Positions 4,739-28,438 of a stretch of DNA of 28,740 nt are shown in pieces (positions within the stretch are counted from its first letter, which is position 1; the number at the start of each line of letters is the position of its first letter). A program made the translations under genes and the position numbers. This DNA comes from Saccoglossus kowalevskii (taxonomy: Eukaryota > Hemichordata > Enteropneusta > Harrimaniidae): NCBI RefSeq assembly GCF_000003605.2, contig NW_003140820.1, forward strand, positions 316,698-345,437, given 5' to 3'. The notes beneath the pieces are model-generated. The model was not told where the DNA came from, searched no databases, and worked only from the letters and a program-made list of their open reading frames with translations.

Positions 4739-6265
4739 ATGAATGGTACACTTTCACTCAGATGTGTGTTGTGTCTGTTGGTCTGTTACGTAACTATTGC
4801 TACATATCCTAGTTTAGTTATACAGCCAGATGATCAGAAAGTAGTGCTGCAATATGGTGCGCCACGGATATTTGTCTACCTTCACTGCAAAGCATCGGAC
4901 TATGATTATCAATCCATGCAGGTATCTTGGTTCAAAAATGACGTCATCATCTCAACTAACTACTTGTTTATGCAAAACGTCAGTGATGAGTTGGTGGATA
5001 CATTACGTTATACTATAAGTGGAGGTTTAACCGGACGTTACGGACTCCAGATATGGACCGATGACGAATACGTAACATTCGATACAGGACAATACTACTG
5101 TGCGTTATTGTATTCATCCAACAAGACTGTGATTGAAAAGTCTCGCACTGCAGACATCAATATACACACCAGTCCACTGTGTGTTGTTGATTACGGAACC
5201 AGTTTGTATTACGGCAATGCTGAAGGTGATGTTGGCAATGTTGATGTGTTGGAAGGAGATATTGTGGGACTTTTCTGTAGTTGCAAGTATACGAACACAC
5301 CAGTTCCTGAGGATATTATGGTGTGGGGAAGAAATGATGTCACTGAAGATTTACAACATAATGCCGTCACGCAATTAGAGGGTTTACACTTAAGGGATTA
5401 TAACTGGTATCCTGAAAGAGGGGAACAAGGTGTGACATTTACCTGTACGCATCGACTTTCTGGAAAACCCGATAGAACGTGTCAGGTTGGTCCATTCAAT
5501 ATAAAGTATGCACCCATTGTAAACGTGGTCCACCAAATAAAAATAAACCATGATCACCAGCTTACTTTGTTATGTAACAGTATAGGGAATCCTAGCGCAC
5601 ACGATTACATGTGGACATGGGACAATGAGGTGATTACCAGAAACAACAACTTTCATTTTGAAAATAACCACGCAATTCTCGCTATTCAGGGGCTGACCTT
5701 TGAGAACAATGGACCACATAACATAACGTGTACTGGTATAAATGAAGTCGGTAATACAACAAGTGAAACTGTCACGATACATGTTGATATTACACCACCC
5801 TCTACAGTTACGCCCACTCCATCGGGACCTATCACTGATTATGCAAAGTCGGCAATCATGAACACTGAGCCGATAGTACATGATGTCATAGTGCAACCAT
5901 TGAATGACTGTACGTTCAGTAGTGCTATTGGTGCTACAGTTAGTTGCATATTGGCAGTGGTCGTTGTCATAGTTACAATATGTCTTGTCAAAGAAAAACG
6001 CTTGAGAGATATTCATCATCAGGACGTTTATATGTCTCCGGTTACAACAAAAGCTGAACAGTCACCGACAGGACATCTGACAACAACAGACGAATCTCGT
6101 GAAAATACTGATGCAGTTTATACCAATATGGCGACTGAAGAAGGAATCACAGCAGATTACGTGGAAGTCAATGACGTAATCAAACTACCAAATATAGATG
6201 ACGATAACTATCAACCACTGGTTGGTAAATCACAGGATATCTATACTCAGTTACAAACAAAGTGA
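4739..6265 (+). CDS. R1: three-Ig-domain transmembrane receptor with C-terminal ITAM
   Basis: Single uninterrupted exon of 508 codons. Residues 1-22 form a signal peptide. Ig1 (about 25-145) is V-like with C50, W64 and a DTGQYYC motif ending at C121. Ig2 (about 148-258) uses C180 and C236 with W196 and ends in KYAP; extra cysteines C148, C182 and C248 may pair. Ig3 (about 260-350) has C279, W292/W294 and C331. A Thr/Pro stalk precedes a membrane helix at about 396-416, followed by KEKR. NxT sequons include N128. Tail tyrosines are Y431 (YMSP, R1 only), Y461 (YTNM, fitting both Grb2 and PI3K SH2 consensus), Y474 (ADYVEV) and an ITAM, Y491 QPL with seven spacers to Y502 TQL, with Asp at -3. The likely role is ligand-triggered Syk-type kinase recruitment at the plasma membrane; this is inferred from motifs. 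The ligand is unknown. The start is chosen because the signal peptide follows it directly and the same ATG is kept in R2 and R4. Satellite array 2 begins 75 bases after the stop. Confidence 0.92.
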   Translation: MNGTLSLRCVLCLLVCYVTIATYPSLVIQPDDQKVVLQYGAPRIFVYLHCKASDYDYQSMQVSWFKNDVIISTNYLFMQNVSDELVDTLRYTISGGLTGRYGLQIWTDDEYVTFDTGQYYCALLYSSNKTVIEKSRTADINIHTSPLCVVDYGTSLYYGNAEGDVGNVDVLEGDIVGLFCSCKYTNTPVPEDIMVWGRNDVTEDLQHNAVTQLEGLHLRDYNWYPERGEQGVTFTCTHRLSGKPDRTCQVGPFNIKYAPIVNVVHQIKINHDHQLTLLCNSIGNPSAHDYMWTWDNEVITRNNNFHFENNHAILAIQGLTFENNGPHNITCTGINEVGNTTSETVTIHVDITPPSTVTPTPSGPITDYAKSAIMNTEPIVHDVIVQPLNDCTFSSAIGATVSCILAVVVVIVTICLVKEKRLRDIHHQDVYMSPVTTKAEQSPTGHLTTTDESRENTDAVYTNMATEEGITADYVEVNDVIKLPNIDDDNYQPLVGKSQDIYTQLQTK

Positions 6266-6540
6266 ATATTTGGAACTGAACATAAAGCTGGTAAAGTGGG
6301 GTAACATTTTATTATGCATCAACGTCCTGCTTGTGTGAATAATATAGGACACTATGCATACATGATATAGGACACTACACATACATAATATAGGACAATA
6401 CATACATAATATAGGACAATACATATACATCATATAGGACACAACTCATACATAATATAGGACACAACTCATACATAATATAGGACACTACGCATACATA
6501 ATATAGGACACAATATACATAATATAGGACACTGCATATA

Positions 6541-7010
6541 CATAATATAGGACACTACGCATACATAATATAGGACACTATACATACATAATACAGGACA
6601 ATACATATACATACTACAGAACATTATACACACATAGTATAGGACAATACACATACATAAAATAGGACACTATGCATACATAATATAGGAAAATACATAT
6701 ACATAATATTAGACACTGCCTACATAAAATAGGACAATACACATACATAATATAGGACAATACATATACATAATATAGGACACTACGCATACATAATATA
6801 GGACACTACGCATACATAATATAGGACACTACGCATACATAATATAGGACAATACACATACATAATATAGGACACTACGCATACATAATATAGGACACTA
6901 TACATACATAATACAGGACAATACATATACATACTACAGAACATTATACACACATAGTATAGGACAATACACATACATAAAATAGGACACTATGCATACA
7001 TAATATAGGA
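6541..7010. repeat. 320-bp offset duplication in array 2
   Basis: About 150 bases at 6541-6690, including the unusual CATACTACAGAACATTATAC variant, recur essentially unchanged at 6861-7010. The offset is 320 bp, the same higher-order length as in array 1. Confidence 0.8.
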
Positions 7011-8158
7011 CAATACACATACATAATATAGGACAATACATATACATAATATAGGACACTGCGTATACATAATATAGAACACTACGCATACATAATATAG
7101 GACACTACGCATACATAATATGACACTATGCATACATAATATAGGACACTATGCATACATAATATAGGACAATACACATCTATAATATAGGACAATACAT
7201 ATACATAATATAGAACACTACGCATACATAATATATGACAATACGTATACACAATATAGGACAATACATATACATAATATAGAACACTACGCATACATAA
7301 TATATGACAATACGTATACACAATATAGGACAATACACATACATAATATAGGACAATACATATACATAATATAGAACACTACGCATACATAATATATGAC
7401 AATATGTATACACAATATAGGACAATACATATACATAATATAGGACACTACACATACATAATATAGGACACTATGCATACATAATATATGACACTACGCA
7501 TACACAATATAGGACAATACACATATATAATGTAGGACAATACATATACATACTACAGAACATTATACACACATAGTATAGGACAATACACATACATAAA
7601 ATAGGACACTATGCATACATAATATAGGACAATACACATACATAATATAGGACAATACATATACATAATATAGGACACTGCGTATACATAATATAGAACA
7701 CTACGCATACATAATATAGGACACTACGCATACATAATATGACACTATGCATACATAATATAGGACACTATGCATACATAATATAGGACAATACACATAT
7801 ATAATATAGGACAATACATATACATAATATAGAACACTACGCATACATAATATATGACAATACGTATACACAATATAGGACAATACATATACATAATATA
7901 GAACACTGCGCATACATAATATATGACAATACGTATACACAATATAGGACAATACACATACATAATATAGGACAATACATATACATAATATAGAACACTA
8001 CGCATACATAATATATGACAATACGTATACACAATATAGGACAATACATATACATAATATAGAACACTACGCATACATAATATATGACAATACGTATACA
8101 CAATATAGGACAATACACATACATAATATAGGACAATACATATACATAATATAGAACA
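6921..8158. repeat. 619-bp tandem duplication inside array 2
   Basis: The segment 6921-7539 is repeated with few changes at 7540-8158. The marker ATACTACAGAACATT lies at 6931 and 7550, and the irregular short unit AATATGACACTATGC is present in both copies. A further stretch, about 7441-7549, recurs at 8221-8329 (offset 780). These are successive unequal-exchange products of about 14 and 27 monomers. Confidence 0.8.
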
Positions 8159-8771
8159 CTAAGCATACATAATATATGACAATACGTATACACAATATAG
8201 GACAATATATATACATAATATAGGACACTACACATACATAATATAGGACACTATGCATACATAATATATGACACTACGCATACACAATATAGGACAATAC
8301 ACATATATAATGTAGGACAATACATATACATGATATTGGACAATACATATACATAATATAGGACACTACGCATACATAATATAGGACACTACGCAAACAT
8401 AATATAGGACAATACACATACATAATATAGGGCACTATGCATACATAATATAGGACACTACGCATACATAATATAGGACACTGCATACATAATATAGGAC
8501 ACTACGCATACATAATATAGGACACTAAACACACATAATATTAAACACTGCATACATAATATAGGACACTACGCATACATAATATAGGACAATACACATA
8601 CATAATATAGGAAAATACATATACATAATATAGGACACTACGCATACATAATATAGGACACTACGCATACATAATATAGGACACTACGCATACATAATAT
8701 AGGACACTACGCATACATAATATAGAACACTATGCATACATAATATAGGACACTACGCATACATAATATAA

Positions 8772-9885
8772 TTGTTTATGTTACTAGTGTAATATACACC
8801 ATGTATAAATTACGAAGTAGTATGTATGTATGTTTGGTGGGTGTTACTTATGTTTGCTTTGTCGAATCATGATTGTAATTAACAAATTTTGATCGTAACT
8901 GCGTGTACAATTCCGCCCAATCACGATTGTGAATTATAATCATAATATCACACCTGCAACGTGATTATCGTGGTTGACGATGGTGACCATCAGCAGGTGG
9001 TCATCGGGTAATGAATGTGTTGCAAATATCTTCTAAAAGATTGAAATTTTTAGTAGCTAGTGGCATAAAAAATATAACTATGATAACACTGCTAATTTTG
9101 TCTTATTTCTCACTAATATTTTCATCATCATGTTGTAAAATTGAATGAAAGTGTTAATAAAATTAAAATAACCATGATTATATACGTATTTTGTTAATTT
9201 CCTGAATTTAATAATTAAGTCAATCAAATCATAATCTGTCTCGATCGATCAAATCAAAGCAACCGAACGTAATAACAATAGCCCGTAATAGCAATAATAG
9301 AAGAATACATTTCACGTCATTTAGTAGCCTTGAATTATAATCAGTTGTTTTTATTTCATGGTAGTTTGTTCTATGCTTTACCCACATGGTTCTGTCTTCT
9401 GGTTCACTGTTGTTGCTCATGGACCACAACGTCAATCGAGGCATGCACCGATACTTAGGAATTTGCCTTGTAAATTAGCACAGTTTTTTATGAGCCGCAA
9501 ACTGGTATATATGTAAATTAACCATGTAATCAAATGAGTCGCAAAGATTACCTTAGATGACCAGAATCCATTATGTAAATTACTCACATGAATATGTAAG
9601 CAATGTCTACCATACGTACGCATGTGCATTTAAAGGGTATAGTTTTATGCATTTCAAAGTTTATAAATAATTTACATATGCATATATAGCTACCTACAGT
9701 TTTAACAGATTCGAAATACACCCTAGTCTAGCTGTTAATTTTCTTCTCAGGAATCCCATTTGAAATGCAGTACATGTCGGTGTCTCTTAATATTCATGCA
9801 TACAAACAGATCATTCACATATTTAGCATTGATACAAATTGATAGGATTGCCTACCAGTAATGTATGTATGTATATCCGGTGCCC
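8772..9885. repeat. Block B dispersed repeat, copy 2
   Basis: It runs from ACTAGTGTAATATACACC through GGTGGGTGTTACTTATG, CCGCCCAATCACGATTGTG and CAACGTGATTATCG to GTAAATTACTCACATG and TGTCGGTGTCTCTTAATATT, following copy 1 closely. Its 5' part (about 500 bp including block A) is missing next to the satellite. No coding sequence is seen. Confidence 0.7.
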
Positions 9886-9959
9886 TGGCAACACTTCAGA
9901 GTGCTGTGCAACTAAATACCAAGCAATTCAGACCATATTTCCAGAGAGTGATTATAACA

Positions 9960-10565
9960 GTATGATGGCTTAATTCTCGTGTTATTATTAAACCTTACGC
10001 CAGGTACCAGGGATCGTTACATTCGCAACCTTTTCGACTAAACAAAGACAAACACAGAGATAGAATCGTGTCAACTTCTAATCTCAGTCGCCCTGTGGAG
10101 AGCTCTCCAAGGCTGGCTCTCCTGCCGAGCACTTCTCAAGACTCTTCTCAAGACTGCATGCCTCGTGGTGTTCTCGGCCCATCTGACTAAGACTAATTTT
10201 ATTCACTTTCAAAAGCTTAACGTATCATATGGAAGTTTAAGAGCTCGAGGAGTAGCCTACACACATTTCACTTGCATGTAGCCAATCACACGAAGTACTT
10301 TAAAACACGTCATATATTATAATATATGATTAATTGTCCGTTATATTAAAAGACTAAACATACCAAACTGTCAGGAATAACGGTCTGTTAGCAAAGTTTA
10401 TATCTATAATTAGTTCCAATCACTGACTCAAGTTCCGTTCAGAACCTCATATAACCCTAAATGATGACAGGTTATGGGAAAATGTTGAATGATATCACCC
10501 AGCCACTCCACTAAAAATCAGCTATCAAGTCGATATCTAGACATATGGAAATAAATCCATGACAG
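9960..10565. mobile_element. About 606-bp insertion absent from the paralogous site
   Basis: At the second block C copy, GATTATAACA is followed at once by TTAACACAGAGG (near 21749). Here the same flanks are separated by about 606 bases. ACAG occurs at both junctions, a possible short target duplication. The ends show only a weak inverted similarity (ATGG near the left, CCAT near the right), and there is no open reading frame. It looks like a non-autonomous element of unknown class. A deletion from the other copy is the alternative. Confidence 0.5.
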
Positions 10566-10753
10566 TTACACAGAGGCAGCCATTTTGTACCAGATTTTCC
10601 GGCTAAATATTCAACTGTTTCAACAGCCTTGACATCTGATACGAGTGTGTCATTTTGTGGGTGATGCCAATGTTAATTACAGTTCTTATGCATTATGCAT
10701 ATCTATTGATAATGACACGGTCAAACATGATCAAGAAGTTTTGAGGAGTTCAT

Positions 10754-10976
10754 ATTCAACTAAGCTTAAAGCGAGAGAGTCGTCACCTGCGCATGCGGCA
10801 GATGCCATAGCGTGTCATTGTTTACAAACAAGCGTCTACCCATGAGCCTTTACGTTTTTAGCGAGTGTTCTTATCGTCGCTTGGGACTCAATTCCCGCGT
10901 GTTCTCAGGTAACGAACCTCCCGCTTTAAGCAAAATCCAACAGCGAGTCAGAAAACACTCACTATTGGTTCACACA
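10754..10976. mobile_element. 223-bp MITE-like insertion with inverted repeat
   Basis: An insertion relative to the R1 upstream region and to block C near 21935, flanked by the direct repeat AGTTCAT at 10747-10753 and 10977-10983. Inside it, 10764-10789 and the complement of 10906-10931 match at 22 of 26 positions, beginning GCTTAAAGCG. The arms are not at the extreme ends, so the true element may be the 168-bp core (10764-10931) with extra flanking sequence. It is more GC-rich than its surroundings. Confidence 0.6.
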
Positions 10977-12322
10977 AGTTCATGCTAGCAACTTAATTCT
11001 TCGGCTATAGCGAATGTTCTGATAGGGGTGGTGTCACAGTATTTTTTTTTATTTTTAAACATCATTTTTAAGTTGCAACAATTTAATATCACACAATCGA
11101 TACAGAACATTAATCCCTATGAATAAGAATGTTGGAATACATTTATCGCATACGTACATTTATGTGCAGAAAATTTCATTTGCAACTATTACGTCATTAT
11201 GTTGTGTACACATGCGCAGTATGTATAATGATGGAATGTTTATGACTACTAAGTCTTGTTGACATTATTTCATTCTCTTTTTTCACTTTTACTAAATAAT
11301 CCAAACCCAGATTTGAAACCAATGATAAATTAACATCACAGATTTGTAATTACTCTAAAGCTAATAAATACGCATACTTAATAACAATGTGGATCGTAGA
11401 TATTCGATATAGTTGATATATATAATATCTGGTAAGTATACGTGTGACGATACTGGTGCCTCGAAAATTACATTTGTTGTAGGTCTATTATATAGTCAAA
11501 ATGAACCGTTCACCTTTCTCTACACTTAGCAAAGATAATAGGTACAAATTTATTTTCCTTTATTCAGTTCAGGGTGACATCAGGTTGTAGTTCGACATAA
11601 CAGTATTGTTACCATGGATACAAAATCTGAACCTTTGATTTGTCGCTGAATACGGAGTCATTTTGAAAAATTGTTTTATTATACATTTTTCAAAAAAATA
11701 AAATTCTTTCTAATTTGTTCACAGTACATATTTACTTAGCATTCGCTAGAACATGAAGGTTGCATTTAAAGTAATATCGATTTTTAATTGGTGTGAAGTT
11801 TTGGTTTTCATAACTTATTTATTTGTATGTTTGATTTAACCATTCTGATCATTGAAAGGTGTTACGTTGATCCTTATATCGACTCATGTCACAACCAATT
11901 ACTGGTAACTATGATTTATTTCGTATATTCCACTGTTAATATGTAATTACCATTATTTTGTACATAGCTATAGCTATCACAGTATTCGTATTGTATTGTG
12001 TAACAGACTTCCATTGTGTGACAGAAACGCAGGACTGAAATATACCATCAAAATGGGTCCCGTGAAACATGGGTACTAGTATGTTGTCAAACATAGAAAT
12101 GAAGTCTAAATGAAATTAAATAATACAGTTTGCATTATAGTATCAGTAGTACGACCTAGAAGGTCGAAACTTGTTGAAGGCTGAGTAATACAAGTATACG
12201 CCTTATCAACCCAAGGTCACCTTGACATAATGTCTTGCAACACTTGTCATACATATTCACTATGACCTATGAATCCGGAAATACGCATAAGTAATATAAA
12301 CTAAAACCAGGTAAAAGTAAAT
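10977..12322 (+). promoter_or_regulatory. 5' flank (block D and distal part) of R2
   Basis: Follows the R1 upstream region nearly base for base. The conserved core GAAAGGTGTTACGTTGA, then CTTATATCGACTCATGTCA, is at 11854-11894, about 469 bases before the start. The run AGAAGGTCGAAACTTGTTGA is near 12159. A TATAAA string about 25 bases before the ATG is too close to be a standard core promoter and is absent in R1. Confidence 0.4.
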
Positions 12323-13846
12323 ATGGATGGTGCACTTTCACTCAGATGTGTGTCGTGTCTTTTGGTCTGTTACGTAACTATTGCTACAAATCCTAGTTTA
12401 GTTATACAACCATATGATCAAAGAGTAGTGCTGCAATATGGGGCGTCACCAATATTTGTCTATCTTGAATGCAGAGCATCGGACTATGACGATCAATCCA
12501 TGCAAGTATCTTGGTACAAAAATGACGTCATCATTTCAAATAACTACATGTTTATGCAAGACGTCAATGAGATGGTGGATACAACGCGGTATTCTATAAG
12601 TGCAGGTATACTCGGACAGTACAGACTCCAGATTATGACCAGTGACGACTACGTAACATTCGATACAGGACAATACTACTGTGCGTTATTGTATTCATCC
12701 AACAAGACTGTGATTGAAAAGTCTCGCACTGCAGACATCAATATACACACCAGTCCACTGTGTGTTGTTGATTACGGAACCAGTTTGTATTACGGTAACG
12801 CTGAAGGTAATGTTGGCAATGTTGATGTGTTGGAAGGAGATATTGTGCAACTCTCCTGTAGGTGTATGTATTTAGATTCATTTGTTCCTGAGGATATTAT
12901 GGTGTGGAGGAGAGATGATTTAATGACAAATCTGACACTAGATCCCATCACAGAGACTGGCGGTTTACTGTTTAGAGGTGCTGATTGGTATCCAAAAAGA
13001 GAAGAGCAAGGTCTGACATTTACTTGTACACATCGAATTCCAGGAAAACCAGATAGAACATGTCAGGTTGGTCCTTTCAATATAAAGTATGCACCCATTG
13101 TAAATGTAATAGCAAATCAAATGGAAATCTATACGATTCAGCGGGTTACTTTGCTTTGTAACAGTACAGGGAATCCCAGTGTACATGATTACGTGTGGAC
13201 ATGGGACAATGAGGTGATTATCAGTAATGACAATTTTTATTTTGAAGATAACCACGCAATTCTTGCTATCCAAGGGCTGACCGTTGAGAACAATGGACCA
13301 CATTATATAGGGTGTACTGGTATTAATGAAGTCGGTAACACAAGCGAAACTATCACGATACATGTTAATATTACACCGCCCTCTACAGTTACCCCAACTC
13401 CATTCGAACTCGGTAAGGTCAAAGCTACGGTCATGAGCACTGAACAGATAGTAAATGATGTCATCGTGCAACCACCTTGTGTATGTGGCAATACAATCGG
13501 TAGTATCATTGGTGCTACGTTTTGCTGCATATTAGGAGTGGTCGTTGTCATACTTACAATATGTCTCGTTAACGAGAAACGTCAGAGAAAGCGTCATCCT
13601 CGGGACATTGATATGTCTCCGGGTACAACAAATGCTGAACAGTTATCTGTAGGACATCTGGCACTTAAAGACAAATCTCCTCAAAACTCTGACTCAGAAT
13701 ATATCAATATGGCGACTGAAGAAGGAATCACGATAGATTACGTGGAAGTCAATGACGTAACCAGAATACCAAATAAGGATGAAGATAACTATCAACCACT
13801 GGTTGGTAGAACACAGGATATTTATACCCAGTTACAAACAAACTAA
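12323..13846 (+). CDS. R2: three-Ig-domain receptor with ITAM plus ITIM-like motif
   Basis: Single exon, 507 residues, same layout as R1. Signal peptide 1-22; Ig1 with C50, W64, C120 (DTGQYYC); Ig2 with C179, W195, C235; Ig3 with C279 and C331; stalk; membrane helix about 395-416; then NEKRQRKR. Ig2 is of the second type (RRDDL, NLTLDP, RGADWYPK), shared with R4. The stalk differs from R1 and R4 (FELGKVKATV). Tail motifs are Y460 (YINM), Y473 in the context IDYVEV, which fits the ITIM consensus (I at -2, V at +3), and an ITAM of Y490 QPL, seven residues, Y501 TQL, with Glu at -3. R1's Y431 is Asp-replaced here. If both motifs are used, the receptor could recruit SH2 kinases and SH2 phosphatases; this is inferred, not shown. 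The ATG has G at +4. Confidence 0.92.
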   Translation: MDGALSLRCVSCLLVCYVTIATNPSLVIQPYDQRVVLQYGASPIFVYLECRASDYDDQSMQVSWYKNDVIISNNYMFMQDVNEMVDTTRYSISAGILGQYRLQIMTSDDYVTFDTGQYYCALLYSSNKTVIEKSRTADINIHTSPLCVVDYGTSLYYGNAEGNVGNVDVLEGDIVQLSCRCMYLDSFVPEDIMVWRRDDLMTNLTLDPITETGGLLFRGADWYPKREEQGLTFTCTHRIPGKPDRTCQVGPFNIKYAPIVNVIANQMEIYTIQRVTLLCNSTGNPSVHDYVWTWDNEVIISNDNFYFEDNHAILAIQGLTVENNGPHYIGCTGINEVGNTSETITIHVNITPPSTVTPTPFELGKVKATVMSTEQIVNDVIVQPPCVCGNTIGSIIGATFCCILGVVVVILTICLVNEKRQRKRHPRDIDMSPGTTNAEQLSVGHLALKDKSPQNSDSEYINMATEEGITIDYVEVNDVTRIPNKDEDNYQPLVGRTQDIYTQLQTN

Positions 13847-13902
13847 ATGGTTCAGAACTGAACATAAAGCTGGTAAAGTAGGGCAATGTTTTAATATTTA
13901 TC

Positions 13903-13925
13903 AAGGCATACATAATATAAAACAC
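13903..13925. repeat. Single satellite-like monomer behind R2
   Basis: GCATACATAATATAAAACAC lies about 60 bases after the R2 stop, where R1 has a 2.4-kb array. It matches the satellite unit GCATACATAATATAGGACAC except at two adjacent bases. It is either the unexpanded ancestor or a remnant. Confidence 0.55.
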
Positions 13926-15265: not shown

Positions 15266-15829
15266 NNNNNNNNNNNNNNNNNNNNNNNNNNNNNNNNNNN
15301 NNNNNNNNNNNNNNNNNNNNNNNNNNNNNNNNNNNNNNNNNNNNNNNNNNNNNNNNNNNNNNNNNNNNNNNNNNNNNNNNNNNNNNNNNNNNNNNNNNNN
15401 NNNNNNNNNNNNNNNNNNNNNNNNNNNNNNNNNNNNNNNNNNNNNNNNNNNNNNNNNNNNNNNNNNNNNNNNNNNNNNNNNNNNNNNNNNNNNNNNNNNN
15501 NNNNNNNNNNNNNNNNNNNNNNNNNNNNNNNNNNNNNNNNNNNNNNNNNNNNNNNNNNNNNNNNNNNNNNNNNNNNNNNNNNNNNNNNNNNNNNNNNNNN
15601 NNNNNNNNNNNNNNNNNNNNNNNNNNNNNNNNNNNNNNNNNNNNNNNNNNNNNNNNNNNNNNNNNNNNNNNNNNNNNNNNNNNNNNNNNNNNNNNNNNNN
15701 NNNNNNNNNNNNNNNNNNNNNNNNNNNNNNNNNNNNNNNNNNNNNNNNNNNNNNNNNNNNNNNNNNNNNNNNNNNNNNNNNNNNNNNNNNNNNNNNNNNN
15801 NNNNNNNNNNNNNNNNNNNNNNNNNNNNN
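15266..15829. other. Assembly gap (564 N)
   Basis: An unbroken run of N. It is flanked on the left by a repeat copy and on the right by block B, so its true length and the distance between R2 and psiR3 are uncertain. Any open frame spanning it is meaningless. Confidence 0.99.
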
Positions 15830-16480: not shown

Positions 16481-16579
16481 TAAAGCACATTGCGTGTATT
16501 GTTTGTTGCATTAATTGCGAACAAAGTGGCGGATATTCTTGTACTCAGACAACAGCAGAGGTCGTATTACTTTTATATG

Positions 16580-17650: not shown

Positions 17651-17659
17651 TTACCTAAC

Positions 17660-18135
17660 ATCGACTTCTAACTAGTGTGAAGTTTTGATTTTCATGAATA
17701 TTATAGTTTTATGTGGTTTAAGACAAATCTGTTTTTAAGAAAACTGTTTGATTTGACCATTCTGATCATTGAAAGGTGTTACGTTGACCCTTATATCGAC
17801 TCATGTCATAACTAATTACTGGTAACTATGATTTATTTCGTATATTCCACTGTTACATTGTAATTACCCTTTTATTTTGTAGATAGCTAGGGCTATCACA
17901 GTATTCGTACTGGATTGAGTAACAGACTACCACTGTGTGACTGGTAGGCAGGGATTAAGTATACCTTCACAACGGGTCCCGTGAAACATGAATACGTTTT
18001 TACATATAAATTAATTAATACTGACTGCATTATAGTATTCGTAATGTATTAGCAGTATGACTTAGAAGGTCGAAACTTGTTGAGGGTGAGGAATTCACCT
18101 TGACACAATGTCTGAACCATGAACCCGGAAATACT
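17660..18135 (+). promoter_or_regulatory. 5' flank (block D) retained before the broken copy
   Basis: The conserved core GAAAGGTGTTACGTTGACCC, TTATATCGACTCATGTCA is intact at 17771-17810. The alignment with the other copies continues, with a few small deletions, to GAACCCGGAAATAC at 18121. There it jumps directly to the end of the Ig1 coding region. Confidence 0.4.
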
Positions 18136-18151
18136 TGACTAGTGTAGTCAA

Positions 18152-19369
18152 ACAGGGATACAGGCTCAAGATTATTACCGACGACGACTACGTAACATTC
18201 GATACAGGACAATACTACTGTGCGTTATTATAATCATCCAACAAGACTGTGATTGAAAAGTCTCGCACTGCAGACATCAATATACACACCAGTCCACTGT
18301 GTGTTGTTGATTACGGAAACAGTTTGTATTACGGCAACGCTGAAGGTGATGTTGGCAATGTTGATGTGATGGAAGGAGATATTGTGGAACTTCCCTGTAG
18401 GTGTAAGTATACAGGTACGCCTACAGAGATGATGTCATGGAAGATTTACCACTTAATTACGTCACAAAATTAAATGGTTTACAATTAAAGGATTATTACT
18501 GGTACTTTGAAAGAAGGGAGCAATGTGTGACATTCACTTGTACACATAGAATTCCTAATAAACCCGATAGAACATGTCAGGTTGGTCCTTTCAATATAAA
18601 GTATGCACCCATTGTAAACGTGGTGCCAAATCAAATAAAGGTTAACGATAATCAGCGGTTCACCTTGCTATGTATCAATACAGCGAATCCTAGCGTTCAC
18701 GATTACATGTGGACATGGGACAGTGAGGTAATTACTAGGAAGAACAACTTTTATTTTGAAAATAACCACGCAATTCTCGCTATCCAGGGGCTGGCCGTTG
18801 GGAACAATGGACCACATTACGTAACGTGTACTGGTATAAATGAAGTCGGTAGCACAACAAGTGAGCCTGTAACGATACAAGTTAATATTCATTCAACACT
18901 TCCAGAACACATCAATGACTATTCAACATCAACAGCCATGTTTACTGAACAAATAACACGCAATGGAACCATGCAGTCAGTGTGTGACTGTAAAATCAGT
19001 AGCGATATTATCTGTACAGTCAGTTGTGCTATTTGCGCTACAGTTAGTTGCATATTGGCAGTGGTCGTTGTCATAGTTACAATATGTCTTGTTAAAGAAA
19101 AACGTCACAGAGAGAGTCATCAGCAGGACGTTGATATGTCTCTAGTTACAACAAAGGCTGTAGAGTCACCTGCAACACATCTGACACTAACAGACGAATC
19201 TCGTCAAAACCCCGACACAGAATATATCAATATGGCGACTGAAGAAGGAATCACAGCAGATTACGTGGAAGTCAGTAACATAACACGACTACCAAATAAA
19301 GATGAAGATAACTATCAACCACTGGTTGGTAGAACACAGGATATTTATACTCAGTTACAAACAAAGTAA
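18152..19369 (+). pseudogene. psiR3: disabled receptor paralog
   Basis: Three independent lesions are visible. First, about 320 bases equivalent to the start codon, signal peptide and most of Ig1 are missing, and the 5' flank runs straight into late Ig1. Second, TAA at 18231-18233 replaces the Tyr codon after the Ig1 cysteine (CALLY). Third, around 18411-18450 a net loss of 25 bases relative to R1 shifts the frame in Ig2. From 18437 the frame is open for 310 codons and covers late Ig2, Ig3, a stalk, a Cys-rich run into the membrane helix (ICATVSCILAVVVV) and a complete tail: YINM, ADYVEV and an ITAM at 19313-19357 (YQPL, seven residues, YTQL). Ig2 resembles the R1 type. A protein from 18437 would have no signal peptide, so a functional surface receptor is unlikely. 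The intact tail suggests recent loss or continuing sequence exchange with its neighbours. Confidence 0.88.
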
Positions 19370-20290
19370 ACATTCAGAACTAATCATAAAGCTGGTAAAC
19401 CATTGTGACACTCAAAGGACGCAGAGAAAGAAGCTACCCCGAGCAGAAACCGTGAGAAGGACAATACAATATTAGTATATTATGCAGAAAAAAAACGCCC
19501 TCTTAAAGTAACGAACACAGACCTTTACAGAGGTAACATAGTATAACAAATATTCTCATGCAGAAATCAACGACGATGAACATTTTCAAAATCGTTGGAC
19601 TATTGTTTAGTTTGTGTAACATAATGCATGCTTTATATTGTCGAATATATGAACGTTTTTTGTGATGTTGAATTATATTTTATGTGAACGCCCATATTTA
19701 ATTATATTAATTTAATTTAATTACATTTAATTATAATAATACCTAAGGTCCTTTATTAAAGAAGTATTTGCAGGTTTTGAAGTCTTTCTAGGTTTTTAAG
19801 AATGTAATGAGTTCGAAATCAGATGGGAAGGATATTAGAAGGTTATTAGAATAGTTTCTATACTTTGCGACTTAAATATATTTTTGATTTGAGAGGCACT
19901 TTTGTAACGTTTTAAAATCTTAAATAGAAGTGGCGCGCATTGGTGTATCAATTATATTGTAAATTCCATCATGTTTATAGCGAGCGTGAAGTGATGTATA
20001 TAGATAACATGTGTATATATAATACCGTTGAAGGCGGCATATAACAATTTACCCGAAAGAAATCCTAACTTACAGATTCGGCACGAATCGCGATATGGAC
20101 ATATAAAAGACTTTCCCATATATCTTTTCGCCTTCGGCATAATGTTACTCTCTAATAATTTACTCTAATATGGTCATATACAAATCAATTTAAGTTCTCA
20201 TAACAACATCTTGCATTATGTATGTGCCAATTCGTAAATTAGAAAAGAGGTTTACAATTGATTGTAGACTTGATAACGCAAAGGCTGTGA
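19370..20290. other. Downstream region of psiR3, no gene seen
   Basis: The first 30 bases still resemble the other 3' ends (AATCATAAAGCTGGTAAA). After that the sequence has no counterpart in the window. It includes an AT-only low-complexity patch near 19690-19740 built of TTAATT. No satellite monomer is recognised. Short frames are not supported. Confidence 0.5.
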
Positions 20291-21660
20291 TTTCCTCATA
20301 ATGTTGTACTGCACACCGGCCACGATTTTAAACTACAAAATCATCCCAATCCTACAAAATCTGATTGTCAAATATGAAACGTGTAAGAAAATATTGAATT
20401 TTTTACTCGGAAATGTAGAATGCTTTTTTTAAATATATTCGAGTATACGTCACTAACAAAAAGTATTTTGTTTGTTGAAATGATTTGAAAACTAAGAGGC
20501 GGATTTGTGTTTACTCCGCCCTCTCAGTTCGAATTTTTAGTACCGGGCTATTCGGCAGAGGGCGCATTACTCTAATATTTTGCTATGTATATTCCAACAC
20601 CGTGTTTGTTTCCAATAAACTCTGTGGAATAAAGTAATACAATCTTAAATTTTAATTTGTTTACAGTAAAATACGAAGACATAAGTTGTGTTCCATGAAT
20701 CTCATGTGTGTATGTTGGATTGTGTTACTTATGTTTGTTTTGCCGAATCATGATTGTGATCAACAAATTATGATTGTAACTGCGTATTCAGTTACGCTCA
20801 ATCTCGATTGTGATTTGTAATCATAACATCACATCTATAGCGTGATTATCGTGATTGACGATGGTGGCCAGACGACAGGCGGTCATCGGGCAATGAACGT
20901 GTTGTAAATATTTTCTAAATGTTTGCCATTTTTAGTAGCTAGTGACATGAAAACATATATAAAATATGATAACACTACTAATTTTGTCTTATTTCTCACT
21001 CGTATCATTATCATCATGTTGTAAAAATGAGTGAAAGTGTTAATAAAAACAACAATCATGATTATATACGTATTTTGGTAATTTCCCCAATTTAAGTAAT
21101 TACGTCAACCAAATCATAATCTGTCACGATTGAGCAAATGATAACAACCAAACGTAATAACAATAGCCCGTAGTAACAATAATAGAAAGAAGAAATTTAA
21201 CGATATTTAGTTGTCTTGAATTATAATCAACTGCTTTTATTTTATGGTAGTTTTTTTTTCTATGCTGTACCCACAATGTTTCGGTTCACGGGTCACAACG
21301 TCCATCGAGGCATTCACCGACACTTAGGAATATGCAATGTAAATTAGCACAGTGGTGCATGAGTCAAACTGATGTGTAAATTAACCATGTCACCAAATGA
21401 GTCGCAAAGATTACCGGGGGTGACCAGAATCCATTATGTAAATTACTCATATGAATATGTATGTGTATTTAATGGATATAGCTTTATGTATTTTAAAGTT
21501 CATAAATAACTTACATATGCATTATATATAGCTACATACAATTTTTCAACAGATTCAGATTCTGCTAATTTTCTTCATGCACACAAACAGATCAAACAAT
21601 CTACCTTAATATATTTAGCACTGACACAAATTGATAAGATTGCCTACCAGTGAAATATGT
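20291..21660. repeat. Block A followed by block B, copy 6
   Basis: Block A (TGTTGTACTGCACACC, CAAAATCTGATTGTCAAATA) runs to about 20560. Block B follows from TATTCCAACACCGTGTTTG (near 20588) through ATCGTGATTGACGATGG to GTAAATTACTCATATGAAT and CCTACCAGTGAAAT. The order is the same as at 1606-3370, which supports duplication of the whole intergenic unit. Confidence 0.7.
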
Positions 21661-22035
21661 ATGTATATAAGAAGCTTTAGCAACCTTTCAGAGTGCTGTA
21701 CAACTGAATATCAAGCAATTCAGACCGTATTTCCAGAGAGTGATTATAACATTAACACAGAGGCAGCCATTTTGTACCAGATTTTCCGGCTAAATATTCA
21801 ACTGATTCAACAGCCTTGACATCTGATACGAGTGTGTCATCTAATTGGTGATTCCAATGTTAATTACAGTTCCTATACATATATATTAATAACGACACGG
21901 TCAAACATCAAGAAGTTTTTTTTGGGGGGGGGGTTCATGTTCCGATAGAGGTGGTGAACTAGTCACAGTATTTCTCTTCATTTTTAAACTCAATTTTTAT
22001 GTTGCGACAATTTAATATCCATTGCTTCGATACTC
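21661..22035. repeat. Block C, uninterrupted copy, and start of distal flank
   Basis: It matches block C upstream of R2 but lacks both insertions, so it serves as the empty-site reference. It includes a T/G homopolymer run (about 21916-21931). The distal receptor flank then begins (GGTGGTGAACTAGTCACAG) but is lost at about 22035, where the R4-specific insertion starts. Confidence 0.65.
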
Positions 22036-23990
22036 TGTAAGTTATTTACCAAAGACACTGTTCCAGACCCACGACGAAAAATAAAATATAAACATATATA
22101 GACATATGAATACAGCAAGAGAAGAAACTTGTCACAACATATCAATGATTGGCAATTTTATTTAAATCCCATAATACATTACGAAAGAATAAACTGCAAT
22201 GACAATTTACAATAAATTTGGGAGGGTCTTGATAAAGAGTGTTACCAGCAATCGAGTCAAGCCCATATAAAGACCAAAAACGGAGTTTATCTATGCAAAT
22301 GAATGGAACACGCTACAAGATTATAATTCAAACAGTAAGTTTGATAAATAGAATATCACAATTTCAGATCAATGATATCAAATTTATAAAACGGGTAGAG
22401 TGATTTACATATAGTTTATTCATATGTTCCTCATACACTCGTTTATCACTGTATATCACTGTCAAATGTTCAAATGTCACATTGCAGGTTTTGCGAGCAC
22501 CTTATTTCTGTGAAAGCATGTTATATTTAATAAGTTCATGGATACACATTTATACCTAATTATTTTTTTAAGTCACTCCAATTAACACGTAAAGGTTAAT
22601 TTTCTAATTTTTAATTCTAATTTTTCTAATTTTTAACATTCGTGGAGTAGACTATGTCTATGTTTTTTTTTCATTATTGCTTTTAAATACGTTCCCTCAT
22701 AACTTCTATAAATAGTGTGTACATAAATAATTTTCCTCATGACTCGTCGGTCTCTGATCGAGTATTTCATGTGTTTCATTTCACAATCTTTGGGACAAGA
22801 AAGGCTGCACCATTAGTATATTTATACGCAATTTTTAAATCTTTATGAACTAAGAGTGATATATATTCATTGCTTTTATATTATTTATTTATTAATTCAG
22901 AACTATTTCAATAAACACGTTAATTTTTTTCACTCATATTACCCAAAAGGGACACTTTATGGATTATAGAATCCATAGGCGTATCTAATTATTCTATGAA
23001 CATTTAAGAGCTCTATCATAAATGAAACTTCGAATGGAATTAATTACTCTCATTGCCATGGTGACTAATAACTCATACGTGTATGTACTACAAGTAGAAC
23101 ACCCATAATATGTGCAAATTGCAAGTTCTAGTGCTGACACATAGTGCTATGTTGCAACAGAAACTATGTTCAAGTTTGGGCCTACATGACAAGGCTGTAC
23201 GGCCATCTCTCTATCAAATGGCAATTTAATACGCTATCCAGGCGTCAACAAGACTCGGTCGAACACAAGCACTTGTGGTCCTTAATCAAGGTTTTCCCAA
23301 ATGTAGTGAATGTATCTCGACCAATGGATAGCGGTCGACCGCTTGTGGTGTTCAAACTATGGTAGCATAGGAACTACCGATCATGAGTCTGATGCAACAA
23401 CCACTATGCTACCAATAACCAATGCATATTCTAATTACCAATCATCTACATATTTTAACATCTGTCACATTTTTTGAACGAAACAAAAAAAATCCACGTG
23501 TCATTTATGATTTGTATGAATGTTTGAAATCTAAACTGTATTTCGCAGGGTAGTACATGTATCCTAGATTAGCATTTCATGATTTTCGGACATTTTTGGT
23601 CGCTATTTGAATGCATCCACCTGGATTATAAAAATATTTTCCTTTCCTAAAAAACATAGTATCATCACACTTGGTATGTTCATGACGTCATCAGTAGTAA
23701 AGTTTGTTTGAAAATGATTCCCAAGTCGAAATCTGCCCATTTCCATCGATAAAGATCTCAATTATTGGAACATCTCTGGAAATATCTCTGTACGACCACA
23801 CCCGACGAGCCGAATGTACTCGGGGAATACACGTGACTGAACATTGCAGACATTAACAGTGCTTTTCTGTGCGGAAACGAAGTGGCGACAGAAATACAAC
23901 TGAACATTTACGGAAATTGGTCTTTTTACGACGATTGTTAGAGATTGTATTACAGAATTGTCGCTTATCGGTCATTTGTATAACAATAGT
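22036..23990. other. Unassigned part of the R4-upstream insertion
   Basis: About 2 kb with no match elsewhere in the window. It holds a perfect 11-bp inverted repeat, TGGTAGCATAG at 23360-23370 and CTATGCTACCA at 23404-23414. The 73-codon frame at 23144-23365 has no recognisable domain. The position next to the LINE suggests nested transposon debris, but no class can be assigned. Confidence 0.4.
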
Positions 23991-26358
23991 GTAGTTCATT
24001 ATTGCAACGAAGACTGTCAGATCCACATGGCTCAACGACTTATATTGCCATTATGGCTGCATACATTCACAACTCAATCCCACTCAAAATATTACCAACA
24101 GTTAACGTACATGAATCAGAATCTTTGTGGCTCGAAATAAATCCAACTATATCCTCATTGGCGATTTCAATATTGATTATACTCAAGAAAACACTCTGAG
24201 TCAAAGTTATTTTGACACAATGTCAGCCCTTAATTTCAAACAAATACCCCCACCCGTATCACTTCTTCCTTTTTAACTACAATTAATCATGTAGTTTCAA
24301 ATCCTTTCGATTATTTTGTGCACTGTAGTATATATGCATATATTACAGATCATCTTCCAATCTTTGCCTTCATTGAAAAAGATGATAAAATGTTTTACAG
24401 AACCAAAGAACGACACATACGCGACTTTTCTAGGTATGATATTAATGACTTTCATCATCAACTCAACAACACAAATTGGGCAAATGTTTATAACACGCCT
24501 GATGCAGATACAGCTTATGGTAATTTCAATGAAGTTCTTAAAGTTGTTCTTAAAGTTGCCCCTTTTAGTAAAACTCAACTCAACTCAACGAAACCCTAAA
24601 AACCGTGGTTAACTTGATGAATTATAAAGTCAATCAAGCATAAGCATAAACTATATTATTAGTTAATGAAAGGTAATTATGATTCAACGCATATATAACA
24701 ACTACAAAAATATTTTAACTTCGCTTCTTCGAAAAGCCAAAAAGTTGCATTTCTCCAAGCAAATAAATGACAACCAAAACTATTCTAATAAACTTTGGAA
24801 AATATTTGATGAAGTAACTGGAAGGGTTGCTGCTAGTAGTGGTAAATTGCCCAAAATTCTTGAAATTGATAATCCGAACAATCAATCTGAATATCTAAAT
24901 GATCCCCCCAAAATAACTGATTATCTGATTATTAAGAAAATCAGGAAGTATAAAGACCCCCGCCAGCTATTTAACTTCTAGTAATACTCCATCATGTTTT
25001 CTTCACCCAGTTACAGAATATGATATGGAAACTGAATTACAATTATTAGATCAACAAATATCATGCGGTCATGATTACATTTCATCTCGTTTGTTGAAAG
25101 ATGCTACCCAGTTTATAAAGAGACCACAAAGCTTACATTTACAACTGGAGTCTTTCCCAACCAAATAAACATAGCCGAAATTACCCTCTTATTTACCTTG
25201 AAATTACAGACCAATTTCAATATTGCCAATATTAAGTAAAACTATTGAAAAAGCTGTAAACAAACAATTACCTTCATTTCTTGAAAAATATAACATTCTC
25301 AACAAATATCAATACTTGCTTTAATTGACCTCATTCATGTATTATTAACAGAAATAGATAATGGCAATATTATTTGAATTTAAAATTAAATTCATATGGC
25401 ATACGAGGGTTAACTTTAAACTGGTTGGATAACTATCTATCAAATCGGAAGCAATATGTCCAGACCGATGGTTATAAATTCACAACGCAGTCAATTAAAT
25501 ATGGTGTTTTATACTAGGACTAACTACAGCTAAGCAATTTTCAAAATACTAAGAAGAATTCACAGGGAGCTGATACAATCACATTGGAAACCTCATATTA
25601 ATAAAGTTCTGTCTAAAATTACCCCCCCCCCCCCAATTGGCCTTATTTCAAAGTTAAGTCACCTACTAACACCTACAAAATTCCTTGTAATCTTGCTTTA
25701 CAACTCTTTGATTTTGCCACACATTTCATACGGTTTGGAAGTATGGGGCAGTACATATCCCACATTGCTCAATCCAAACCACATTCATCAAAAAAGATTA
25801 ACGAGTATTATCTTGTTCATACTCACAGTCAACCACTATTAAATTCTCTGCACATCCTAAATGTAAATGACCAATTTAAATATCAACTATGCACATTTAT
25901 CTATGATCTGCATAGAATAGTGTTCCTCGTAATGCGTGTGACTATTTCTCTTTCCCAGAACACAACTATAACTCTAGATTTTCAACTAATTTCTCTTTTC
26001 CTAGAAAAGAAACTAGCTTGGGACAATAATCTATTGACTACCAGGGAACTATACTTTAGAAAAAACATAATCGCGCATGTTTCAAAAAAGCTTTGAAAAA
26101 ATATTTAATAACAGAACACATGATTTCTAGTGATAAGCTCTGACTTTTGTTTTTCTTTCTTCTGGGTTAGTTTGTATTATGATTTGAAACATACTTATTT
26201 GTTATATTTATTTAGTTTGTAAAAGTATGTCTTATAAAGTTTCATTAGTCTCTGTTGTGTTTCTTCTATGATGTCCTCGTCATAATTCATACATTTTTCC
26301 AATACATTTAAAAAAAAGAGTCGACTAGCTATTTTGTGCTATTTCTGTTTCTCTGCCA
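23990..26358 (+). mobile_element. Degenerate non-LTR retrotransposon (CR1/L2/Jockey-like)
   Basis: Protein fragments appear in canonical order but in shifting frames. They are endonuclease pieces (YIHNSIPLK and ESLWLEI near 24080-24140, IGDFNID near 24157, ITDHLPIF near 24345) and the linker to RT (LLRKAKK near 24725). RT pieces follow: YRPISILPILSKTIEKAV near 25205, GIRGLTLNWLDNYLSNRKQY near 25398, and YNSLILPHISYGLEVWGSTY near 25699. The segments that should carry the catalytic aspartates, including the (F/Y)ADD box, are missing. Many stops and frameshifts are present, and the 5' end is truncated within the endonuclease. It is on the + strand, in the R4 upstream region. The 3' limit is set where receptor 5' flank homology resumes at about 26361; there is no clear poly(A) end. 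It is non-functional. Confidence 0.88.
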
Positions 26359-26360
26359 CA

Positions 26361-26923
26361 ATAATATCGATTTGTATTTAGTGTGATGTTTTGGTTTTCT
26401 TAAATTATTTATTTGTATGTGGTTTAGGACAATACTTTTTTTTAAAGAAAATTGTTCAATTTGACCATTCTGATCACTGAAAGGTGTAACGTTGACTCTT
26501 ATATCGACTCATGTCACAACCAATTTATTTCGTATATTCCACTGTTAATATGTAATTACCATTCTTTTGTACATAGCTAGGGCTATCACAGTATTCGTAT
26601 TGTATTGAGTAACATATTTCTAATGTGTGACAGGAACGCAGAGCTGAAGTATACCATCAAAATGGGTCCCGTGAAACATGGATATGTTGTCAAAAATAGA
26701 AATGAAGTATAAATGAAATTAAATAATACTGTTTGCATTGTAGTATCAGTAGTACGACAGTAGCCGAGACTTGTTGAAGGCTGTGTAATACAAATATACG
26801 CCTTATCAACCCAAGGTTACCTTGACAATGTCTTGCAACACATTCCATACATATTCACTATGACCTTCTATGAACCCGGAAATATGCATAAGTAATATAA
26901 ACTAAAACCAGGTGAAGGTAAAT
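26361..26923 (+). promoter_or_regulatory. Proximal 5' flank (block D) of R4
   Basis: Homology to the other receptors resumes with AATATCGATTTGTATTTAG right after the LINE and runs to the start codon. The core (GAAAGGTGTAACGTTGACTC, TTATATCGACTCATGTCA) lies at 26479-26519, 445 bases before the ATG. About 680 bases of distal flank present before R1 and R2 are replaced here by about 4.3 kb of insertion, so only the proximal part is left as a candidate promoter. Confidence 0.4.
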
Positions 26924-28438
26924 ATGGATGGCACACTTTCACTCAGCTGTGTGTCGTGTCTGTTCGTCTGTTACGTAACTATTGCTACAGATCCTAGTTT
27001 AAATAGACAGCCAGATGATCAAAGAGTAGTGCTTGAATATGGTGCGTCACCGATATATGTCAGCCTTGATTGCAGAGTATCGGACTATGATGATCAATAC
27101 ATGCAGGTATCATGGTACAAAAATGACGTCATAATCTCAACTAACTACGTGTTTACGCAAAACGTCAATGAGTTGGTGGATACATCACGGTATTCTATAA
27201 TTGGAGGTTTTCCCGGAACGTACAGGCTCCAGATATTTACGGATGACGACTACGTAACATTCGATACAGGACAATACTTCTGTGCGTTATTGTATTCATC
27301 AAACAAGACTGTGATTGAAAAGTCTCGCACTGCAGACATCAATATACACACCAGTCCACTGTGTGTTGTTGATTACGAAACCAGTTTGTATTACGGCAAC
27401 GCTGAAGGTGATGTTGGCAATGTTGATGTGTTGGAAGGAGATATTGTGGAACTTTCCTGTAGGTGTAAGTATTCTGATTCATTTGTTCCTGACGATATCA
27501 TGGTGTGGAGAAGAGATGATTTAAAGACAAATCTGACACTAGATCCCACCATAGAGACTGACGGTTTAGTGTTTAGAGGTGCTGACTTTTATCCAAAAAG
27601 AGAAGAGCAAGGTCTGAGATTTACTTGTACACATCGAATTCCTAATAAACCCGATAGAACATGTCAGGTTGGTCCATTCAATATAAAGTTTGCACCCATT
27701 GTAAAATTGGTCATAATCCGAATGGAAATATACACGACTTACCGGGTTACCTTGCTATGTAGCGGTAAAGGGAATCCTAGTGTAGACGATTACGTATGGA
27801 CATGGGACAATGAGGTGGTTACCAGAAACAACAGCTTTCATTTTGAAGATAACCACGCAATTCTCGCTATCCAGGGACTGACCGTTGAGAACAACGGACC
27901 ACATGATATAACGTGTACTGGTATAAATGAAGTCGGTAATACGACAAGTGAAACTGTCACGATACAAGTTAACATCACACCGCCCTCTACAGTTACTCCT
28001 ACCCCATCGGGACCTATCACTAATTATGCAAAGTCAGCGAATATGAACACTGAGCTGATAGTGCATAATGCCATAGTGCAACCATTATGTGACTGTACGG
28101 TCTGTGGTGCTATTGGTGCTACAGTTAGTTGTATATTGGCAGTGGTCGTTGTCATACTTACAATATGTCTTGTTCAACATGAGGGAAAGTGTTATCATCA
28201 GGACGTTGATATGTCTCCGGTTAAAACAAAAGCTGAACAGTCACCTGCAGGACATCCGACACTAACAGACGAATCTTGTCAAAACACTGACTCAGAATAT
28301 ATCAATATGGCAACTAACGTAGGAATCACTACAGATTACGTAGATGTGAATGACGTAACCAGAATACCAAATGAAGATAACTATCAATCACTGGTTGGTA
28401 GAACACAGGATATTTATACTCAGTTACAAATAAAGTAA
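26924..28438 (+). CDS. R4: three-Ig-domain receptor with ITAM plus ITSM-like motif
   Basis: Single exon of 504 residues from the ATG at 26924, which aligns with the starts of R1 and R2; an in-frame GTG at 26912 is not used in eukaryotic initiation. Signal peptide 1-22; Ig1 with C50, W64, C120 (DTGQYFC); Ig2 with C179, W195, C235 of the R2 type; Ig3 with C279 and C331; stalk like R1 (TPTPSGPITNYAKSA); membrane helix about 395-417. The membrane-proximal segment differs from R1 and R2: QHEGKCYHQD replaces the basic KEKR or NEKR run. Tail motifs are Y459 (YINM), Y472 in TDYVDV, which fits the TxYxxV switch-motif consensus, and an ITAM of Y487 QSL, seven residues, Y498 TQL, with Glu at -3. The role is inferred as for R1. 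The gene looks like a mosaic of R2-type and R1-type modules. Confidence 0.92.
   Translation: MDGTLSLSCVSCLFVCYVTIATDPSLNRQPDDQRVVLEYGASPIYVSLDCRVSDYDDQYMQVSWYKNDVIISTNYVFTQNVNELVDTSRYSIIGGFPGTYRLQIFTDDDYVTFDTGQYFCALLYSSNKTVIEKSRTADINIHTSPLCVVDYETSLYYGNAEGDVGNVDVLEGDIVELSCRCKYSDSFVPDDIMVWRRDDLKTNLTLDPTIETDGLVFRGADFYPKREEQGLRFTCTHRIPNKPDRTCQVGPFNIKFAPIVKLVIIRMEIYTTYRVTLLCSGKGNPSVDDYVWTWDNEVVTRNNSFHFEDNHAILAIQGLTVENNGPHDITCTGINEVGNTTSETVTIQVNITPPSTVTPTPSGPITNYAKSANMNTELIVHNAIVQPLCDCTVCGAIGATVSCILAVVVVILTICLVQHEGKCYHQDVDMSPVKTKAEQSPAGHPTLTDESCQNTDSEYINMATNVGITTDYVDVNDVTRIPNEDNYQSLVGRTQDIYTQLQIK

Follow-up and report, generated by a model that had tools for sequence, protein, structure and literature searches.

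The stretch of DNA analysed here, referred to as the window (28,740 nucleotides; G000:C3169:316698-345437 in an assembly of 572 Mb and 4830 contigs), comes from the acorn worm Saccoglossus kowalevskii and carries a tandem cluster of immunoglobulin (Ig) receptor genes. Their predicted products end in an immunoreceptor tyrosine-based activation motif (ITAM), and some relatives elsewhere in the genome combine similar outer domains with putative immunoreceptor tyrosine-based inhibition motifs (ITIMs). The initial annotation had described three intact single-frame genes and one pseudogene, and the open reading frames (ORFs) and a broken gene 3 bore this out. Contigs are designated C and loci L throughout.

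4739-6265, forward strand: gene 1, intact intronless Ig receptor of 508 residues (ORF, Pfam, hydropathy, tail motifs)
12323-13846, forward strand: gene 2, intact intronless Ig receptor of 507 residues (ORF, Pfam, hydropathy, tail motifs)
17656-19369, forward strand: gene 3, pseudogene, including homology of its 5' flank (comparison of copies; ORF 18437-19369)
26924-28438, forward strand: gene 4, intact intronless Ig receptor of 504 residues (ORF, Pfam, hydropathy, tail motifs)

Gene 4 starts at the ATG at 26924, the GTG at 26912 given in the ORF list being superfluous. Homology of the pseudogene to the flanks of the other copies ends at 18094, and the gap beyond leaves it with no start codon, no signal peptide and a greatly shortened V domain. 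Its coding remnant (∼18159-19369) has an in-frame stop and a frame shift, and the ORF at 18437-19369 retains the transmembrane helix, a YINM motif and the C-terminal ITAM. The intronless structure and the tandem expansion were likewise supported; intronless refers here to the coding part, and the 5' untranslated regions may hold introns. The window copies have hundreds of bases of upstream DNA in common and remain homologous for some tens of bases past the stop codon. Since both flanks are shared, the tandem duplications were DNA-based, and a retrogene origin of the tandem copies was rejected.

The proposed protein layout of a signal peptide, a V-like domain, two further Ig domains and one membrane helix held for the helix and for the Ig_2 and I-set domains, whilst the N-terminal stretch is only signal-like and most V-set scores fall below the cut-off. 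By hydropathy alone, each intact gene has a single N-terminal signal-like stretch and a single membrane helix, with a 19-residue core devoid of charged residues:

5933-5989, forward strand: membrane helix of gene 1
13514-13570, forward strand: membrane helix of gene 2
28118-28174, forward strand: membrane helix of gene 4

Pfam matches above cut-off were Ig_2 and I-set in genes 1, 2 and 4, and Ig_3 in genes 2 and 4. The full proteins of genes 1, 2 and 4 scored 11.7, 18.5 and 25.2 bits for V-set, below the 26-bit cut-off, and the gene 4 ectodomain scanned alone reached 26.9 bits, barely above it. Pfam support for the middle Ig domain is partial, and the three-domain layout is clearest in an AlphaFold ectodomain model built with 19 family sequences (mean predicted local distance difference test score, pLDDT, 83.6; predicted template modelling score 0.59), which replaced an unusable model built with four sequences (mean pLDDT 28.8). 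Searching the PDB by sequence with the whole gene 2 protein gave weak matches to a mixture of Ig proteins, VEGFR2 being the best (E = 8.5e-5), and the gene 2 tail gave no match up to E = 10.

The C-terminal ITAM, with the acidic residue at -3 and the seven-residue spacing that had been described, is present in genes 1, 2 and 4 as well as in pseudogene 3. The following features were read from the tail sequences:

6200-6253, forward strand: ITAM of gene 1 (DDNYQPLVGKSQDIYTQL)
13781-13834, forward strand: ITAM of gene 2 (EDNYQPLVGRTQDIYTQL)
19304-19357, forward strand: ITAM remnant of pseudogene 3
28373-28426, forward strand: ITAM of gene 4 (EDNYQSLVGRTQDIYTQL)
6119-6130, forward strand: YTNM motif (YxNM) of gene 1
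13700-13711, forward strand: YINM motif of gene 2
28298-28309, forward strand: YINM motif of gene 4

All four copies end in the form [DE]-x-x-Y-x-x-L-x7-Y-x-x-L, and all four also retain YxNM, a putative PI3K/GRB2-type site, and YV[ED]V, two motifs that the initial annotation had not mentioned. When the four tails were shuffled, 200,000 times apiece, a strict ITAM arose 132 to 220 times per tail (∼0.1%). Columns belonging to tyrosine motifs were invariant among the four copies in 9 of 9 cases, compared with 30 of the 80 remaining tail columns (p = 3e-4), and the same comparison confined to the last 54 tail columns gave p = 0.007. The ratio of nonsynonymous to synonymous divergence (dN/dS) was 0.48-0.71 over the whole gene for the three intact window copies, 0.73-1.12 over the entire tail in six pairs, where the ITAM stretch is too short for a reliable ratio of its own, and 0.68-1.33 in the part of the tail upstream of the ITAM. 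Outside the window, the ITAM tyrosines are also kept in L004, an intact gene of the same cluster, and ITAMs recur among divergent relatives in the genome. Among these paralogs, the ITAM tyrosines thus appear to be under constraint while much of the tail varies.

The cluster extends past the window to three further places on the same contig, L004, which has the same tail, and two broken copies. The expanded family expected from the window was found across the assembly, with at least 49 related places on 15 contigs. This count is a lower bound, since it merges the matches of two protein searches from which only the best candidates were scored; it takes matches down to E = 8e-4, some of the weak ones possibly being other Ig genes, and leaves out the matches on C127, which has a single very long Ig frame. 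Many members are open single frames of ∼430-750 residues. No relatives were found in viral contigs, and of 12 stretches fitting a pattern in other genome contigs, none was confirmed.

Tails were classified in 28 single-frame members with a helix, L015 and L023 being omitted because their frames are broken. Eight have an ITAM (Yxx[LI]-x6-8-Yxx[LI]) and 10 are multi-ITIM, defined as at least two [SIVL]xYxx[ILV]; one of these, L019, whose 5' part is not in frame, is scored as both, and 11 have neither. YxNM occurs in seven of the 28 tails and EGLxYA[DE]L in eight. Shuffling gave mean counts per 28 tails of 0.17 for ITAM, 0.63 for multi-ITIM and 0.29 for YxNM, and the observed counts were reached in none of 2000 shuffles. 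The divergent member L065 (G000:C3688:301500-303900) has YINM followed by an ITAM (DNEYQHIDRVKDDEYMTL), which suggests that the tail combining YxNM and ITAM is old within the family. The putative inhibitory tails of L016, L027 and L028 are 275-314 residues long and have numerous sites of the YxxV/YxxL type, exceeding the number in classical ITIM receptors.

The initial annotation, sound on domains, ITAM, intronless structure and tandem arrangement, covered only the activating half of this family, as ITIM-tailed relatives, some of them with closely similar ectodomains, coexist with the ITAM genes. Pair A consists of the window genes and L006 on C1345, whose tail contains LAYAEI, LTYAEL and TIYAEV. 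Gene 1 and L006 are identical at 96 of 119 V residues, compared with 91-95 of 119 between gene 1 and the other intact cluster genes; in Ig2, 35 of the first 36 residues match and 45 of the remaining 77, and Ig3 has 27 matches in 93. The likeness is closest up to about codon 180 and weaker from there to about codon 260. At the DNA level, L006 is 81-84% identical to the four intact cluster genes across 702-737 bp, with no homology afterwards. Two segments of gene 1 are relevant here:

4792-5514, forward strand: V and part of Ig2, 83% DNA identity to L006, after which homology stops
5054-5272, forward strand: codons 106-178, homogenised segment, with a synonymous divergence (dS) of 0.065-0.089 among the three intact genes

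Pair B is formed by L022 (SGYAIV, LTYADL, ITYAQI) and L024 (ITAM, EGYYQALYLSNDTNTYTSL), both open, which lie on opposite strands of C1345 with ∼4 kb between them. Their identity is 73/78 in codons 23-100, then 75/80 and 73/79 in the two successive blocks, falling to 44/82 in Ig3 and 9/35 in the helix region; the DNA is 93.6% identical along 875 bp and homology is lost beyond. In Pair C, L016 (ITIM) and L015 (ITAM) are identical at 77/80 and 74/80 residues within codons 101-260, and at 59/73 afterwards. In Pair D, L013 (ITAM) and L028 (ITIM, without a third Ig domain) match at 70/80 residues in codons 101-180 and much less elsewhere. By tail sequence, members of a pair have opposite signalling motifs: an ITAM on one side and two or three ITIM-type motifs on the other.

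Four-fold degenerate sites gave the same picture. Between L006 and gene 1, 4 of 54 such sites differ in codons 23-180, compared with 15 of 18 in codons 261-420 (p = 2e-9); for gene 2 the values are 8/56 inside the block and 17/20 outside (p = 2e-8). The corresponding values are 5/97 and 14/21 for Pair B (p = 2e-9), and for Pair C 0/67 in codons 106-260 and 7/18 in codons 1-105 (p = 6e-6). Codons 181-260 of Pair A and 261-280 of Pair B were assigned to neither block. Because the silent sites match the protein picture, protein constraint alone is insufficient, and the shared blocks were copied after the genes had diverged.

A maximum-likelihood tree of the V-Ig2 region was built for 20 members (seven ITAM, seven ITIM and six other), with the broken L015 labelled as ITAM, L018 (one strict ITIM plus an ITAM-like pair with 10-residue spacing) labelled as ITIM, and L019 and L065 left out. 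L022 and L024 are sisters, as are L015 and L016, and L006 falls within the window clade. The tree requires five tail changes, at least four of them forced by well-supported branches. Shuffled tail labels gave 4.9-5.0 changes; therefore the tail types show no clustering on the ectodomain tree. Gene conversion or recombination apparently keeps the outer domains alike in pairs A, B and C.

The window copies are also mosaic with respect to one another: the 3' half of Ig2 is common to genes 2 and 4, and the stretch from Ig3 to the membrane helix to genes 1 and 4. The informative sites are clustered accordingly (adjacent-site permutation p = 0.001; max-chi p = 0.002). Codons 106-178 are near-identical among the window genes, the homogenised segment being present in pseudogene 3 as well. 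Across codons 106-180, the end of V and the start of Ig2, dS is low both among the window copies and within each of the four ITAM/ITIM pairs, as if this region were a conversion hotspot. Within V, codons 76-100 have a pN/pS (nonsynonymous to synonymous differences per site) of 1.7, and five of the eight three-state residues fall there. The pN/pS maximum is in tail codons 421-445 (2.63; no significance test was made on either value), so V codons 76-100 do not stand out, and a case for positive selection there was not upheld.

Candidate partners for both tail types were sought among SH2 domains, the search giving 25 matches from 36 scored candidates. SHP-2 exons are present, one of them matching PTPN11 in the PDB (E = 4e-37). 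At a locus on C2592, the first SH2 exon had SYK (1a81) as its best PDB match (E = 1.9e-23) and the second ZAP-70 (E = 2.8e-7), with RasGAP near at 2.4e-6. An identification as SYK was dropped, as ankyrin repeats lie between the two SH2 exons; because of this arrangement, we take the locus to be that of a tandem-SH2 kinase of the Shark/HTK16 type. Exons like the SH2 domains of GRB2, SHIP, SRC and TEC were recognised by eye only.

We consider it probable that the window genes are the activating members of a paired activating/inhibitory receptor system with the ITAM in cis. Each gene would encode a type I membrane protein of the cell surface, with a V-type domain for ligand binding followed by two more Ig domains. 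Receptors clustered by ligand would have their C-terminal ITAM phosphorylated by a Src-type kinase, creating a docking site from which a tandem-SH2 kinase (of the Shark/HTK16 type, or SYK if one is encoded) would signal. The YxNM motif upstream may add a costimulation-type input of the PI3K/GRB2 kind, a single chain then carrying recognition, costimulation-type and activation signals. The ITIM-tailed relatives would recruit SHP-2 and oppose the ITAM receptors, and conversion or recombination, by moving V-Ig2 blocks between genes with opposite tails, would give both the same or a similar ligand. With expression in cells of an immune type, the genes would be candidate innate immune receptors. 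For the fuller proposal we see a somewhat better than even chance: that a pairing like that of CEACAM1/CEACAM3 or of KIR evolved independently in an invertebrate on intronless genes, that conversion re-copies a V-Ig2 cassette between ITAM and ITIM tails, and that the cis ITAM, with a CD28-like YxNM in some members, dispenses with a DAP12-like adaptor.

CEACAM1 and CEACAM3 resemble the present family in that a V-type domain is common to an ITIM receptor and to a partner that has a cis ITAM or ITAM-like motif, and in that gene conversion keeps the binding domain alike (PMC5112662). For the Xenopus Ceacams, similar V domains, opposite tails, conversion and inverted orientation were held to argue strongly for paired receptors; their V identity is 80-93% with ITIM and ITAM genes inverted, comparable to Pair B with 73/78 on opposite strands (PMC5112662). 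Unlike in CEACAM, the genes here are intronless, the copied blocks extend over V and/or parts of Ig2, YxNM precedes the ITAM in some members and the host is an invertebrate. The likeness is best read as convergence in design.

It is possible, though we think it rather unlikely, that these are homophilic receptors for self-recognition or adhesion of the Alr/FcoR type and not sensors of pathogens: V would bind its own kind, or a matching receptor, on an adjacent cell, and the ITAM and ITIM tails would signal match or mismatch. VIA-align of the Foldseek matches did not tell adhesion V domains from antibody V domains. The Botryllus FcoR genes resemble the present ones in being a multigene family with a V-type and two Ig domains, a transmembrane helix and either ITIM or activating tails, and in having activating and inhibitory members in haplotype clusters (PMC12065747). 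The Alr cluster of the cnidarian Hydractinia, also of the Ig superfamily, has ITAM and ITIM motifs, as here (PMC12065747). FcoR has features of its own, namely a sushi domain placed between the V and C2 Ig domains, a hemITAM, alternative splicing and fester partners (PMC12065747), whereas the genes described here are single-exon and the window tails have a full two-tyrosine ITAM. No sushi domain was among the 11 Pfam families found when 19 ectodomains were scanned at E = 0.01.

Less probable still is that the shared outer domains have no functional pairing behind them and stem from concerted evolution of the ordinary kind in a family that is partly decaying. The broken state of three of the seven places in the C3169 cluster would fit this, as would the mutual mosaicism of the window copies, the homogenised segment in pseudogene 3 and the single short segment that L013 and L028 have in common. 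However, the overall dN/dS between intact window genes is 0.48-0.71, L022, L024, the window genes and L006 are all open, and the shared blocks stop short of the tail and, in different clades, link tails of opposite type. That the ITAM- and ITIM-like tyrosines merely serve endocytosis or general adhesion signalling (through a YxxL adaptor or GRB2/PI3K docking), with no activating/inhibitory opposition, we regard as very improbable: YxxL/YxxI would fit endocytic signals too, and the tails have additional tyrosines and YxNM, but paired YxxL/I with a spacing of seven or eight residues recurs in the window genes, L013, L019, L024 and L065, the EGLxYA[DE]L core is found in 8/28 tails, and the ITAM and multi-ITIM counts lie beyond all shuffles.

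Several observations weigh against paired activating and inhibitory receptors. The V domains of Pair A are ∼19% different, and Ig2 past codon 180 is clearly diverged (dS 0.59-1.04). Pair C includes the broken L015, with one in-frame stop, and has only 35/77 identical residues in codons 23-100. Pair D is weak (four-fold sites 6/35 and 14/28, p = 0.007; support 81/74). The blocks inside and outside were picked after the identity profiles had been viewed, so that all the four-fold p-values above are flattering. Eleven of the 28 tails have neither an ITAM nor two ITIMs, and decay affects three of seven places in the window's own cluster. On the signalling side, the kinase exon of the C2592 locus was not seen, N making up 6301 of the 10,000 bases of L053 and the whole of L074 (9000 bases), and none of the 25 SH2 matches was shown to be SYK, an absence that proves nothing with 36 candidates scored.

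The presence of YxNM and ITAM on one chain differs from CD28, which to our knowledge has no ITAM. The likeness to CD28 lies in the YxNM motif (PMC11599192), and non-vertebrate deuterostomes, an acorn worm among them, are reported to have no convincing homolog of CD28, CTLA4 or ICOS (PMC11599192). A cis ITAM on an invertebrate Ig receptor, to which the initial annotation had drawn attention, is indeed present but has a precedent: the oyster Crassostrea gigas has CgIgIT2, which, like the window genes, combines Ig domains, a transmembrane helix and a classic ITAM in cis (PMC11999971). By its description, CgIgIT2 has five Ig domains, compared with three (∼350 extracellular residues) in the window genes, and the available part of that description mentions no ITIM twin (PMC11999971), whereas ITIM relatives are present here. 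Cis-ITAM Ig receptors (CgIgIT2) and invertebrate activating/inhibitory families (FcoR, Alr) are already in print. What appears to be new is the combination of intronless genes, full ITAMs and ITIMs, and closely similar, converted ectodomains. No invertebrate paired receptors with converted ectodomains were among the matches listed in the open-licence literature, which is weak evidence of absence.

Other features of the window lie around the genes. Two arrays of a 23-bp minisatellite (consensus AATATAGGACACTACGCATACAT), at 1-1606 and 6339-8770 with 70 and 106 copies, flank gene 1 and produce long spurious ORFs on the reverse strand. Upstream of gene 2, ∼1.1 kb of extra DNA (9878-10976), missing at the matching point of gene 1 (3369/3373), is likely a mobile-element insertion. 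Upstream of gene 4, 24234-26093 holds broken frames with endonuclease- and reverse transcriptase-like stretches, recognised by eye; it looks like a retrotransposon without long terminal repeats, and a single frame gave only a sub-threshold match in Pfam. The 564 bases at 15266-15829 are N. Outside the window, the mitochondrial contig C4830 (L031, L072; 17,037 bp) has an unusual arrangement, in which COX1 is on one strand and ND1 and COX2 on the other, and holds a gene block ATP6-COX3-Gly-ND3-Arg-ND4L-ND4-His-Ser-ND5-CYTB (names assigned by eye except COX1). In this contig AAA codons coincide with conserved Lys positions and one AGA with a conserved Ser position; TGA encodes Trp, and ATA often stands where vertebrate COX1 has Ile. 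These codon assignments and the deuterostome-type block suggest a hemichordate-like animal and speak against an echinoderm, a tunicate or a cnidarian.

Paired receptors, described mostly from vertebrates, are viewed as a response of the host to pathogens that take advantage of inhibitory receptors. The single-exon format of the present genes eases testing, as intact members can be cloned from genomic DNA and the outer half or the tail assayed directly. If the window genes and their ITIM-tailed relatives are indeed such pairs, the paired-receptor solution to this arms race would have arisen repeatedly, including in a non-vertebrate deuterostome without adaptive immunity.

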